From positions 1 through 28,990 of the IMG/VR virus record IMGVR_UViG_3300027833_000177: a DNA stretch of 28,990 bases; one strand, given 5' to 3'. The first letter of the stretch is position 1; each line of letters opens with the position of its first letter. This stretch comes from a virus. Of the stretch, positions 11,591-26,852 are shown piece by piece. The notes beneath the pieces are model-generated. The model was not told the DNA's origin, searched no databases, and was given only the letters and a program-made list of their open reading frames with translations. A program made the position numbers and the translations under genes.

Positions 11591-11596
11591 TATAAT
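11591..11596 (+). promoter_or_regulatory. Possible -10 element of a rightward promoter
   Basis: A perfect TATAAT lies 62 bp before the ATG of the 46-residue gene, in a very AT-rich spacer between divergent genes. No good -35 sits 16-18 bp upstream, so the call is weak. The same spacer read leftward has TATAAA/TAATAA boxes that could serve the gene starting at 11536. Confidence 0.35.
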
Positions 11597-23895: not shown

Positions 23896-24573
23896 ATGGC
23901 TTCTAATACAGTAACTTCCGAAACGAAGTTAATGCACTATTTAGACTTAGAAGAATATGGTTATGACGAAGTACCGGACGAAAGGAAACAAGACGCTAAA
24001 GAAGAAGTAGCGGACTACCTACTAAACGAAACATTAAGGTTTTTATCTAAAGGTACTAGTCCCGTAAAGGGCGAAGGTCGTTTCCGTATTCTTAATCAGA
24101 AATACGCTAAGAACGAAAAAGGCGGGGTAAGGACTGCTAACCTAGAATTAGAAGGCGACTTAAAAGACTCTTTAATTAGTAAACCCGCAGACGGTTCTTT
24201 TATTAAGTACGGACATAAAGGGACTCAAGTTCCTAAAGCAGACGGACATAATCAATTGAGCGAAAAGGCACAAACGTGGGCGGTTTCAAGTGGACACCCG
24301 AAAAGGCGTTATATTCCTAACGACGGGCAAACTTTTGTTAGTGAGATTACAAACGAAATACGCGCAATTATAAACGACTTCAAACCTACACTTAGTTCGA
24401 CTTCGGAAGAAGATGTAGACATAACCGCTTTTATAGATAGTAATACTAATCAAGACTTAAATATTAGCGAAACGCAAGAAAACGAAAATAATACTTTTGT
24501 AGGTATTGACGACCTTTTCGGCGACGATGCAATAGAAGCTTTATTATTAGATGCAATTCGTAGGGGGCGTTAA
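23896..24573 (+). CDS. Head-tail connector/virion morphogenesis-like protein
   Basis: 225 residues, SD AAGGAAG upstream. An acidic N-terminus, then RFLSKGTSPVKGEGRF, LEGDLKDSLISK, a YGHKGTQVPKADGHN segment and HPKRRYIPNDGQTF. L-x-DSL... followed by RR-(Y/F)-(I/L)P-D/N-G resembles gp10/virion morphogenesis-type proteins that complete the head-tail joint. The C-terminal third is acidic and Asn-rich. The stop overlaps the next start (TTAATG), so the two are co-translated. It and the next gene could be related. Confidence 0.5.
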   Translation: MASNTVTSETKLMHYLDLEEYGYDEVPDERKQDAKEEVADYLLNETLRFLSKGTSPVKGEGRFRILNQKYAKNEKGGVRTANLELEGDLKDSLISKPADGSFIKYGHKGTQVPKADGHNQLSEKAQTWAVSSGHPKRRYIPNDGQTFVSEITNEIRAIINDFKPTLSSTSEEDVDITAFIDSNTNQDLNISETQENENNTFVGIDDLFGDDAIEALLLDAIRRGR

Positions 24574-25160
24574 TGAGTTTAGAAGTTGATTTTTCGGAAG
24601 ACCTAAAGAAACTTTTAAGTACTGTTAGAAACGACGGGTTAATACCTAAAGTTAGAAAAGAATTTTCTAAGAAAGCTTTAGTACCTATTAAGAAAGCTAT
24701 AATTCAAGATATGATTATTGGTGTAAGTCCGGTTCGAAGCGTTGGTAATTGGGTTAAATATTCACAAAGCTACAAAGACGTAATAAGTGGTAAGGCTACC
24801 TTTAGAAAAGGTAAGACCGGTAAACTATACGTTACAAACGAAAAGGACGAAGAATTTTTTCGTAAGTCAAGTCCTACAAAGTTAATAAGTCCTGTAAATC
24901 TAAGACACTCCGGCGGGTTACATAAATCTTTATATACAAGAACTTTCGGCGGCGTAAAACAAAGATTTAGATTAATTATAGGGTTCGCTAATTTTTTAGC
25001 AGACATTCATAATAAAAGGGGTTCGGGTAAATCTAAAGTAGTTCGTAGAATGTTACCGACCGAAAGGGGCGAAAAGTTTAATCGACGCATTACGTCGAGT
25101 ATTGTAGACGAATTAAACAAAGCCGTTAAAACCATTGTAAAACAATTTAATAGACGATAA
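24573..25160 (+). CDS. HK97 gp10-like head-tail connector/minor tail protein
   Basis: 195 residues, basic. N-terminal helices with KKAIIQDMIIGVSPVRSVGN, then LRHSGGLHKSLYTRTFGG, a hydrophobic GFANFLADIHNKRG and a final VVRRMLPTERGEKFNRRI. G-SPV----(W/Y), S-GGL--S-, A-x-HN and (R)R-LP--RGE are shared with gp10-type tail-completion proteins. It lies between portal and scaffold, whereas such genes usually follow the capsid gene. Confidence 0.55.
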   Translation: MSLEVDFSEDLKKLLSTVRNDGLIPKVRKEFSKKALVPIKKAIIQDMIIGVSPVRSVGNWVKYSQSYKDVISGKATFRKGKTGKLYVTNEKDEEFFRKSSPTKLISPVNLRHSGGLHKSLYTRTFGGVKQRFRLIIGFANFLADIHNKRGSGKSKVVRRMLPTERGEKFNRRITSSIVDELNKAVKTIVKQFNRR

Positions 25161-25184
25161 GTTAATTTTAATAAATAATAACTA

Positions 25185-25211
25185 GACGAACCCAACGTAG
25201 GTTAGTTCGTC
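25185..25211 (+). ncRNA. Stem-loop A upstream of scaffold gene
   Basis: Stem GACGAA / TTCGTC (6 bp, perfect) encloses CCCAACGTAGGTTAG. Within it AAC/GTT closes a GTAG tetraloop, leaving an asymmetric internal loop CCC/AG. The 15-nt core is identical in stem-loop B while the stems differ. Likely an mRNA leader structure; a DNA-level site is not excluded. Confidence 0.7.
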
Positions 25212-25217
25212 AACAAA

Positions 25218-25240
25218 TACGCCCAACGTAGGTTAGCGTA
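25218..25240 (+). ncRNA. Stem-loop B abutting the scaffold ribosome-binding site
   Basis: Stem TACG / CGTA (4 bp, perfect) encloses the same CCCAACGTAGGTTAG core as stem-loop A. The AAAGGAAG ribosome-binding site begins at its 3' end (25240), so folding or protein binding here could change scaffold translation. Confidence 0.7.
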
Positions 25241-25253
25241 AAGGAAGAATAAA

Positions 25254-25874
25254 ATGCCAGAAATTACGGACGAAGAATTAAAAGCCTTAAAAGAAGCTGC
25301 AAACGAAGCGGTTAGTTTAAAGTCTACAAACGAACGTTTATTAGACGAAAACAGTAAAACCAAAACGCGAGCGCAGGAAGCGGAAGAAAAAATACAAGCC
25401 GCGGCAAAAAGAAAGTTAGAAGAAGAAGGTAAAACAAACGAGCTATTAGAACAAGAACGTAAAGAAAAACTTGAACTACAAGCGAAGTATGAAAACCAAA
25501 CGAAACTAGCTTTAAAAGAAAAGATTCGCTCGGAAGTTTCTAAACATGCTAAAGACGCTTTAGACGTTGACGACCTTTTAAGTATTAAAGATAAGGAAGT
25601 TAGAAGTCTATTAAAAGCAAGTGAAGAAGACTTAACGGTTCTAGGTGCGGAAGAATTTGTAACGAAAGTTAGAGAATTGAAACCCCACTTTTTTGGACAA
25701 AAGAAATTACCCGACTATAATAATAAGAAAGGTAAGAACGAAGACGAAGAAGGTAACAAGTCTAAAGACGACCTATACAGGGAAGCTTTAAAAAAGGTAA
25801 GTACAAGACAAGAACTAGCCGCGGTTAGAAAAAAGTTTGGTAAAGACCTAGACAGTTACAACAACAACTATTAA
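25254..25874 (+). CDS. Capsid scaffold protein
   Basis: 206 residues, start after AAGGAAGAATAAA. Residues ~5-90 are a long coiled coil rich in Glu, Lys and Ala (EITDEELKALKEAANEAVSL; EEKIQAAAKRKLEEEGK). A helical part DALDVDDLLSI and LGAEEFVTKVREL follows, then a Lys/Asp/Glu/Asn linker and a basic C-terminal helix (RQELAAVRKKFG). This is the usual form of phage scaffolds that nucleate capsid assembly through a basic C-terminus. It precedes the major capsid gene directly. No protease domain was seen. Confidence 0.85.
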   Translation: MPEITDEELKALKEAANEAVSLKSTNERLLDENSKTKTRAQEAEEKIQAAAKRKLEEEGKTNELLEQERKEKLELQAKYENQTKLALKEKIRSEVSKHAKDALDVDDLLSIKDKEVRSLLKASEEDLTVLGAEEFVTKVRELKPHFFGQKKLPDYNNKKGKNEDEEGNKSKDDLYREALKKVSTRQELAAVRKKFGKDLDSYNNNY

Positions 25875-25922: not shown

Positions 25923-26852
25923 ATGGCATTTACATTAAACTTGTCGGGGACTGCGGAAGTAGATGACTCGATTAGAGAAGAATTTGACAGTGAATTTAGA
26001 TTATCTTTCGCAGAACAAGGGGTAGCTTCTCAATTCGCAACAATTATGCGTGACATTGGTTCTAAATCAATTTCACTTCCAAAGTACGACCAACTTGATT
26101 TAGCTATCACGCCTTTACAAGAAAAAGAAGACGTAACAAGCGAAGCAATGTCTGACAGCGCGATTATCATTACTCCTCAAGAGTATGGAAATGTTGTGAC
26201 AACGACGAAATTGGCGTCACTTCAAACTGGAAATATGGCCGATAGAGCAGCGGCAAGACTTGTAGGAATCAATGCGGGACGTACAAAAAATAAACTTGCT
26301 ACTTTAGCAATGGACTTAGGAACTAACGTTCTTATCGCAGACGGTAAAGCAGTAATTGCAGACCTTGAAGCGACTAGCACAATGGACGGTTCTTTACTTG
26401 GTAAAGCATTTAACAGACTTGCAAGAACAAACGTACCCGGCCTTTCTGGTGGTGATTATTTTCTAATTGCTCACGACGATGTTATTCAAGATATTAGAGA
26501 GCAGTCAGGGCCTAACTCATGGATAGACGCAAGTAAATATTCTTTACCAGAAAACCTAATGAGAAATGAAGTTGGAATGTACAAAGGTTTTAGAGTAGTT
26601 AGAGATAACTTTTCTACTATCATTACAGACGGCGGAGTATCGGGCGTAGACGTTTACCACTCGTATGCGGTTGGTTTCAATGCTTTAGGTTATGCGGTTT
26701 CTCAAGAGGTAGAAATGAAAGCGACAGGGCCTTTCGACAAACTAGCTAGGTTTGTTAACCTTGGTTGGCACGGTTGTATGAATTATAAAATCGTAGAACA
26801 AGAAGCTTTAGTAGTTATTAAATCGGCTTCTTCGGTAGGCGTTAACGTTTAA
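25923..26852 (+). CDS. Major capsid protein (HK97 fold)
   Basis: 309 residues, start after AAAGGAATAAGAAA. Long N-arm region (EEFDSEFRLSFAEQGVASQF), central E-loop-like LPKYDQLDLAITPLQEKEDV, a spine-helix region (NMADRAAARLVGINAGRTKN) and P-domain strands. The YKGFRVVRDNF and DVYHSYAVGFNALGYAVSQE region followed by FDKLARFVNLGWHG is typical of HK97-type capsids. Codon choice differs from neighbours (more CTT, CTC and GCA-type codons), as expected for the most abundant protein. A strong terminator follows. Confidence 0.93.
   Translation: MAFTLNLSGTAEVDDSIREEFDSEFRLSFAEQGVASQFATIMRDIGSKSISLPKYDQLDLAITPLQEKEDVTSEAMSDSAIIITPQEYGNVVTTTKLASLQTGNMADRAAARLVGINAGRTKNKLATLAMDLGTNVLIADGKAVIADLEATSTMDGSLLGKAFNRLARTNVPGLSGGDYFLIAHDDVIQDIREQSGPNSWIDASKYSLPENLMRNEVGMYKGFRVVRDNFSTIITDGGVSGVDVYHSYAVGFNALGYAVSQEVEMKATGPFDKLARFVNLGWHGCMNYKIVEQEALVVIKSASSVGVNV

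Follow-up and report, generated by a model that had tools for sequence, protein, structure and literature searches.

What do two small stem-loops do in front of the scaffold gene of a phage? The question arises from IMG/VR virus record IMGVR_UViG_3300027833_000177, of which positions 1 to 28,990, here called the window, were analysed. The 15-nt sequence CCCAACGTAGGTTAG lies at 25191-25205 and again at 25222-25236, an offset of 31 nt, within a 93-nt leader gap (25161-25253); the repeat and its spacing were found exactly as a preliminary sequence-only reading of this DNA had them. The gap is bounded by the end of an upstream gene to which no function has been assigned (24573..25160, 195 aa) and is followed by the scaffold protein gene (25254..25874, 206 aa) and the major capsid protein gene (25923..26852, 309 aa; phrog_1357), all on the plus strand. 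No third copy of the repeat was found in the whole window with up to 3 mismatches allowed, and 15-nt repeats spaced by at most 100 nt are expected only 0.03 times per dinucleotide-shuffled window.

The gene after the gap had been taken to encode the scaffold, and its homologues support this assignment: 26 of 31 match the Pfam family Phage_scaffold (PF06810) and 17 of 31 match phrog_194 (head scaffolding protein), and the major capsid gene comes next. The window's own scaffold protein is too divergent to match either family. Its predicted structure (pLDDT 82) consists of a long coiled coil (residues 6-98), a small domain and C-terminal helices; the model has no recognisable RNA-binding fold, and a fold search with it gave no PDB match. 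The capsid family is called N4-type in the annotation of one cultured relative.

Each copy of the repeat forms the upper part of a hairpin on the plus strand. Hairpin A (25185..25211) has an outer stem of 7 bp, GACGAAC/GUUCGUC (25185-25191 with 25205-25211), an internal loop with CC (25192-25193) on one side and A (25204) on the other, a tip stem AAC/GUU and the loop GUAG (25197-25200). Hairpin B (25218..25240) has an outer stem of 5 bp, UACGC/GCGUA (25218-25222 with 25236-25240), and the same internal loop and AAC-GUAG-GUU tip, with its loop at 25228-25231. The proposed arrangement of flanks that differ between the copies and yet pair perfectly in both is thus what the fold gives, and the two tips are as described; the internal loop, which had been drawn as CCC/AG, is really CC/A, because the first C of the core pairs with its last G. 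Hairpin A folds with −10.9 kcal/mol (z −3.95), hairpin B with −6.5 kcal/mol (z −1.53, modest as a free energy alone), and the whole 93-nt gap with −17.4 kcal/mol (z −2.57), a value that only 3 of 200 shuffled gap sequences match. The Shine-Dalgarno sequence of the scaffold gene, AAGGA (25241..25245, plus strand), adjoins hairpin B at its end, 25240, so that this copy does touch the ribosome-binding site. Between 25050 and 25300, there is no intrinsic terminator in the form of a G+C-rich stem followed by a T run.

A transcript that started downstream of 25240 would lack both hairpins, a case that the sequence-only reading had held against itself. The sole promoter-like match on the strand, a weak sigma-70-like one (25151-25179; 9/12), would instead put the start near 25185, at about hairpin A, and ATAAATAAT (25171..25179, plus strand) is a possible -10 element. 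An A+T-rich, ATAAATA-like motif is found just 5' of hairpin 1 in many relatives, and ATAAATA resembles the T4 late -10 element. The promoter is nevertheless only suggestive, since ATAAATA has a modest strand bias relative to shuffles and, in the relative G005, is no commoner than in shuffles. In several relatives (L109-L112, L117, L118), ATAAATA is frequent in the gaps just before late-strand genes (14:0, 11:1, 7:1).

Is the paired structure itself under selection? Relatives were drawn from IMG/VR by capsid- and portal-based searches, and the covariation set for the window-type (GUAG) clade comprised 8 hairpins from 4 genomes of distinct sequence (the window, L002, L052 and L160), L001 being a near-copy of the window. 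In these 8 hairpins, the CAAC-GUAG-GUU tip is invariant, and its pairs therefore carry no covariation; the outer stems vary. Paired cells make up 96.9% of the stems; the corresponding figure is 71.6% for shuffles, and sliding the partner gives 42% at most. Stem changes on both sides number 18, compared to 5.2 in shuffles (a count reached in 0 of 500), and the covariation score is 0.750 as opposed to 0.196. Only the core served to locate the hairpins in L002 and L052, and their outer pairing is therefore an independent test: given only the core, the outer-stem pairing over all 8 hairpins sums to 43 bp where 4.7 would be expected, and none of 200,000 draws reached 43. In L002 (capsid 84% identical), stem B has gone from UACG/CGUA to UACA/UGUA, a double change from G-C to A-U, and stem A ends in G-U. 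L052 (capsid 75%) and the distant member L160 have new outer stems and carry the tip CAACGUAGGUU twice; in both, the lower stem of hairpin 2 extends into the first A's of the Shine-Dalgarno stretch. Relatives that conserved the core but lost the pairing would have spoken against a selected structure; the opposite was found, with outer stems that differ and still pair. The paired hairpins are a real RNA element whose structure is under selection, and the proposal that stem bases are swapped in pairs around a kept core holds good.

An alternative pairing of CC with GG around an AACGUA loop, which might have allowed a kissing loop, was ruled out, given that relatives have C, A or U as the first base of the core. 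Searches with the core sequence need care: many unrelated phage contigs (L005-L049) contain CCAACGTAGG within tandem repeats. A search for two copies of it returned 45 viral contigs that, apart from two relatives, were coding repeats or unrelated; a search for a looser core pair in the viral and genome collections gave L052 and L160, which belong, and otherwise unrelated repeats.

Hairpins of the same design, with other loops, stand at the scaffold start in other lineages. L053 has GGGU-GAAC-ACCC and GUGGU-GAAC-ACCAC at the same site, L057 has two GAAC-loop hairpins in the scaffold leader, and L054 and L067 each have two GC-GAAG-GC hairpins there. The loop varies between the genomes of the clade (GUAG, GAAC or GAAG) and is identical in both copies in 9 of 11 of them (permutation p 0.0008, a rough figure as the genomes are related). 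In the other two, the copies differ at the fourth base of the loop (GAAU/GAAG and GAAG/GAAC), so recognition of this base is not strict. The loop types are not cleanly distributed over the scaffold tree, GUAG appearing in three places. More distant relatives carry two or three GGAU, GGAG or GGAA hairpins, distributed over the leader, the start codon and the early coding sequence. The loop class common to these lineages is G-N-A-N, a class named post hoc, and only the per-loop tests were corrected for all loops.

In 41 dereplicated relatives, whose scaffold starts were picked by Shine-Dalgarno sequence and reading frame, 28 GGAT hairpins lie within 100 nt of the scaffold start, compared to 7 in 268 kb elsewhere. 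With all tetraloops tested, GGAG and GAAG hairpins are also enriched within 100 nt of this start (the p-values overstate independence, the genomes being related), and an unbiased scan covering loop lengths from 3 to 6 nt picked the same loops. On the antisense strand near the scaffold start, no GGAT, GGAG or GAAG hairpins were found in the 41 relatives. Nine relatives were read nearly whole. One possible exception aside, their shared-loop clusters are found where the scaffold gene starts, and the hairpins are not dispersed over the genome. The exception, in G006, consists of two GGAG hairpins before a 107-aa gene, perhaps that of the small terminase subunit (L115, reverse strand, reverse-complement position 11592); this pair may be due to chance, one of its loops being the Shine-Dalgarno sequence itself.

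All the carriers are uncultured contigs. L130, L132, L156 and L086 have no such hairpins, no GNAN pair was found in the cultured relatives (Streptomyces, Bacteroides, Bacillus Pagevirus and the SPP1 group), and no prophage relatives were found in the genome contigs collection. Two other loops were considered and did not reach significance, namely AGU triloops in L072, L073 and L141 (Bonferroni p 0.4) and a UGUA loop in L080. In the GAAG clade, a third hairpin within the scaffold coding sequence, with a GAAG loop and formed by GCG AAG GCN at about +50 to +56 (L063, L065, L067 and L070), is explained equally well by a conserved peptide, AKAL, and was set aside; at L069, the sequence is GCG AAC GCG, in agreement with its own GAAC loops.

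The distant clade with GGAT loops offers a different view of the same site. In L083, L088, L089, L090 and L129, a group with capsids 72-84% identical to that of L083, the second (middle) hairpin runs through the scaffold start codon, and its stem holds the U and G of the AUG. The genes start with ATG GTG GAT ACC, ATG GCG GAT GCC or ATG ACG GAT GTC, such that codons 2 and 4 change jointly (V..T, A..A, T..V): the pairing is kept and the protein altered. To judge from these codons, such nonsynonymous paired changes fit an RNA and would be hard to explain at the level of the protein or the DNA.

What might read these hairpins? What is found here at the ribosome-binding site, a loop and an internal loop that are kept in sequence and a stem kept in its pairing only, agrees with a protein-binding operator that works as in MS2, and a translational operator or protein-binding tag, with a putative binding partner, is the best reading. 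Tips that are lineage-specific and mostly identical within a genome point to a trans-acting reader of changeable specificity, most simply a phage protein, while the location at the Shine-Dalgarno sequence or start codon suggests blocked initiation. Translational control of some kind by the hairpins is probable, in our judgement, and we lean, by a little, towards a tandem RNA operator in the scaffold mRNA leader that would be the site of a phage protein, with the scaffold as the likeliest reader. Taken separately, the identification of the scaffold as that reader is tentative and somewhat doubtful. It is conceivable, if short of probable, that a broad group of tailed phages shares a fast-changing loop code, re-coded in both copies, and that an RNA-binding protein of the phage goes with it, for which the scaffold is a plausible candidate.

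In such an operator, each hairpin would present a recognition head made of a 3-bp tip and a G-N-A-N tetraloop, to which the window-type clade would add the internal loop of 2 nt and 1 nt; the sequence of the lower stem would be free provided that pairing holds. A phage-encoded RNA-binding protein would bind both heads, and, because the heads come in pairs some 20-32 nt apart, it would probably be dimeric or oligomeric. Once bound, the protein would deny access to the 30S subunit, through hairpin B against the Shine-Dalgarno sequence in the window and through the start codon held inside a hairpin in other clades, and less scaffold would be translated. If the scaffold is the reader, surplus free scaffold left after head assembly would shut off its own synthesis.

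Other explanations invoke a different reader or a different step. A role at the 5' end of the transcript, as an mRNA stabiliser or as a signal to RNA polymerase in the manner of lambda boxB or HK022 put, is rather unlikely. boxB and put are small RNA hairpins near the 5' end of the transcript; put consists of two hairpins, and the boxB tips are lineage-specific and read by a phage protein. Hairpin 1 lies near the ATAAATA-like motif in most relatives, maybe at the extreme 5' end. However, hairpin 2 tracks the ribosome start in both clades, where it abuts the Shine-Dalgarno sequence or holds the start codon, further hairpins lie inside the coding sequence, and other genes with an ATAAATA motif upstream have no such hairpins. 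A plain stabiliser would have no need of a common loop. boxB and put act on transcription elongation, giving read-through of terminators, and do not lie on a scaffold start codon; boxB has a GNRNA pentaloop accompanied by boxA, and the loops seen here are GNAN tetraloops. Very unlikely, in comparison, is a DNA element, be it a double-stranded protein site, a packaging site or a hairpin promoter of the type used by the N4 virion polymerase. The N4-type label of the capsid family brings it to mind, N4 early promoters being small DNA hairpins. Yet the stems keep pairing rather than sequence, the loops are confined to the coding strand, and the paired start-codon changes are of a kind that fits RNA. 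The N4 promoters have triloops, the present hairpins tetraloops. A search with the RNA polymerase family PF00940 gave no match, but its control was silent too, and this family may not cover virion polymerases.

A host RNA-binding protein such as CsrA/RsmA could also repress scaffold translation until the phage needs the scaffold. CsrA targets have GGA loops in spaced sites overlapping the start region, and this is the pattern of the distant clade, where GGAU, GGAG and GGAA loops lie about 20-30 nt apart over that region. No csrA gene was found in ten phage genomes, so that CsrA would have to be the host's. The GUAG, GAAC and GAAG loops of the window clade are without GGA, even in the hairpin next to the Shine-Dalgarno sequence, and the change of loops among close relatives is incompatible with a fixed host specificity; this possibility is therefore distinctly unlikely. 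A pair of riboswitch-like hairpins for a small molecule, comparable to guanidine-II, is barely credible: the two small hairpins, with the same loop in each and placed ahead of a start codon, do recall it, but the loop varies between genomes, as a fixed ligand would forbid, and there is no Rfam match. The phage-protein operator stays the preferred reading.

Leader RNAs at the PF06810 scaffold family are a known theme, into which the hairpins can be placed. With Rfam 15 at curated thresholds, no family was found in the window or in seven relatives, nor did 25100-25400 give a match at E values up to 10. The statement that no named element has this form accordingly stands for Rfam, with the qualification that a different named leader RNA, GP20-b (RF03003), occurs at the same scaffold family: in Terrisporobacter phage TVCOM_ph1, it immediately precedes the scaffold gene (40 bits; L206:1119-1187), a gene of the PF06810 type, which makes leader control at this family plausible. 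Likely diverged copies of GP20-b, at about 20 bits and below threshold, precede the scaffold genes of Lj771 (AF195902.3:20868-20936) and BCJA1c (NC_006557.1:24048-24110). Like GP20-b, the present element lies directly upstream of a GP20/PF06810 scaffold gene, in its gap of 93 nt, and has two hairpins. GP20-b differs in its loops of about 10 and 8 nt, its other sequences and a tip that is not repeated, and neither the window nor G002-G010 matched its covariance model (at least 36.2 bits), the best score among the relatives being 9.9 bits, in G001. The present hairpins are an element distinct from GP20-b. To our knowledge, no mechanism has been described for leader RNAs of the GP20-b type.

Other stretches precede scaffold genes as well. 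GACCTGAGYAAGTCGTTAAA is common to Bacillus megaterium phage Pony and Lactobacillus prophage Lj771, before the (presumed) scaffold gene (L203, about 1430-1460; L201, about 1355-1385), with short matches in Lactobacillus phages mv4, phiEF-1.1 and phiJB, and is possibly another leader RNA. In SPP1, 268TH008 and Ray17 (L199, L200, L205), a conserved stretch, GGCTTGGGGTNAAA...AAGCGTAT...GTGAGGTGTGACACG, precedes the scaffold gene (gene 11 in SPP1) and is unlike the present hairpins.

Control of the scaffold/capsid ratio in tailed phages has so far mostly been inferred. With the hairpins, some thirty uncultured phages offer a compact element, explicit in its structural signature, where scaffold translation starts, and the idea of feedback by the scaffold becomes directly testable. 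If the scaffold is the partner, a structural protein would double as an RNA-binding regulator. A search of the literature library for scaffold autoregulation or for phage scaffold leader motifs returned no usable account. As King, Hall and Casjens reportedly found in 1978, and Wyckoff and Casjens in 1985, P22 scaffold outside proheads represses its own synthesis post-transcriptionally. The proposed control would resemble that of P22 gp8 in that free scaffold determines, post-transcriptionally, how much scaffold is made; the two scaffolds belong to different families, and we know of no defined RNA element in the P22 feedback.

Among RNAs of similar design, CsrA/RsmA leaders share with the GGAU clade several hairpins and a short loop motif around the ribosome start and differ from the window clade in their GGA loops; in the present element, moreover, loop identity shifts between relatives. 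ANTAR-target RNAs are tandem small hairpins read as sites for dimeric proteins. The pan motif has likewise been described as tandem small hairpins with repeated conserved features, which were read as dimeric-protein sites (PMC2864571). Both differ from the present element in having bulged A's or hexaloops rather than GNAN loops and in being associated with bacterial metabolic or regulatory genes.

Another parallel in design comes from the RNA phages. The MS2/R17 coat operator is a hairpin by the ribosome-binding site with a specific tetraloop, unpaired bases below a short upper stem and a lower stem for which pairing is the main requirement. The hairpin at the ribosome site, the specific tetraloop and the pairing-only lower stem are shared with the scaffold leader. 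The MS2/R17 operator, however, belongs to an RNA phage and is a single hairpin whose loop is ANYA and which has a bulged A, whereas the present element has two to three hairpins with GNAN loops in a DNA phage and a putative partner. If the scaffold is indeed the reader, the re-coded loops would form a natural family of orthogonal RNA-protein pairs, comparable to MS2 and PP7, and the scaffold and its leader would be the counterpart, in a double-stranded DNA phage, of the coat-operator pair of MS2.
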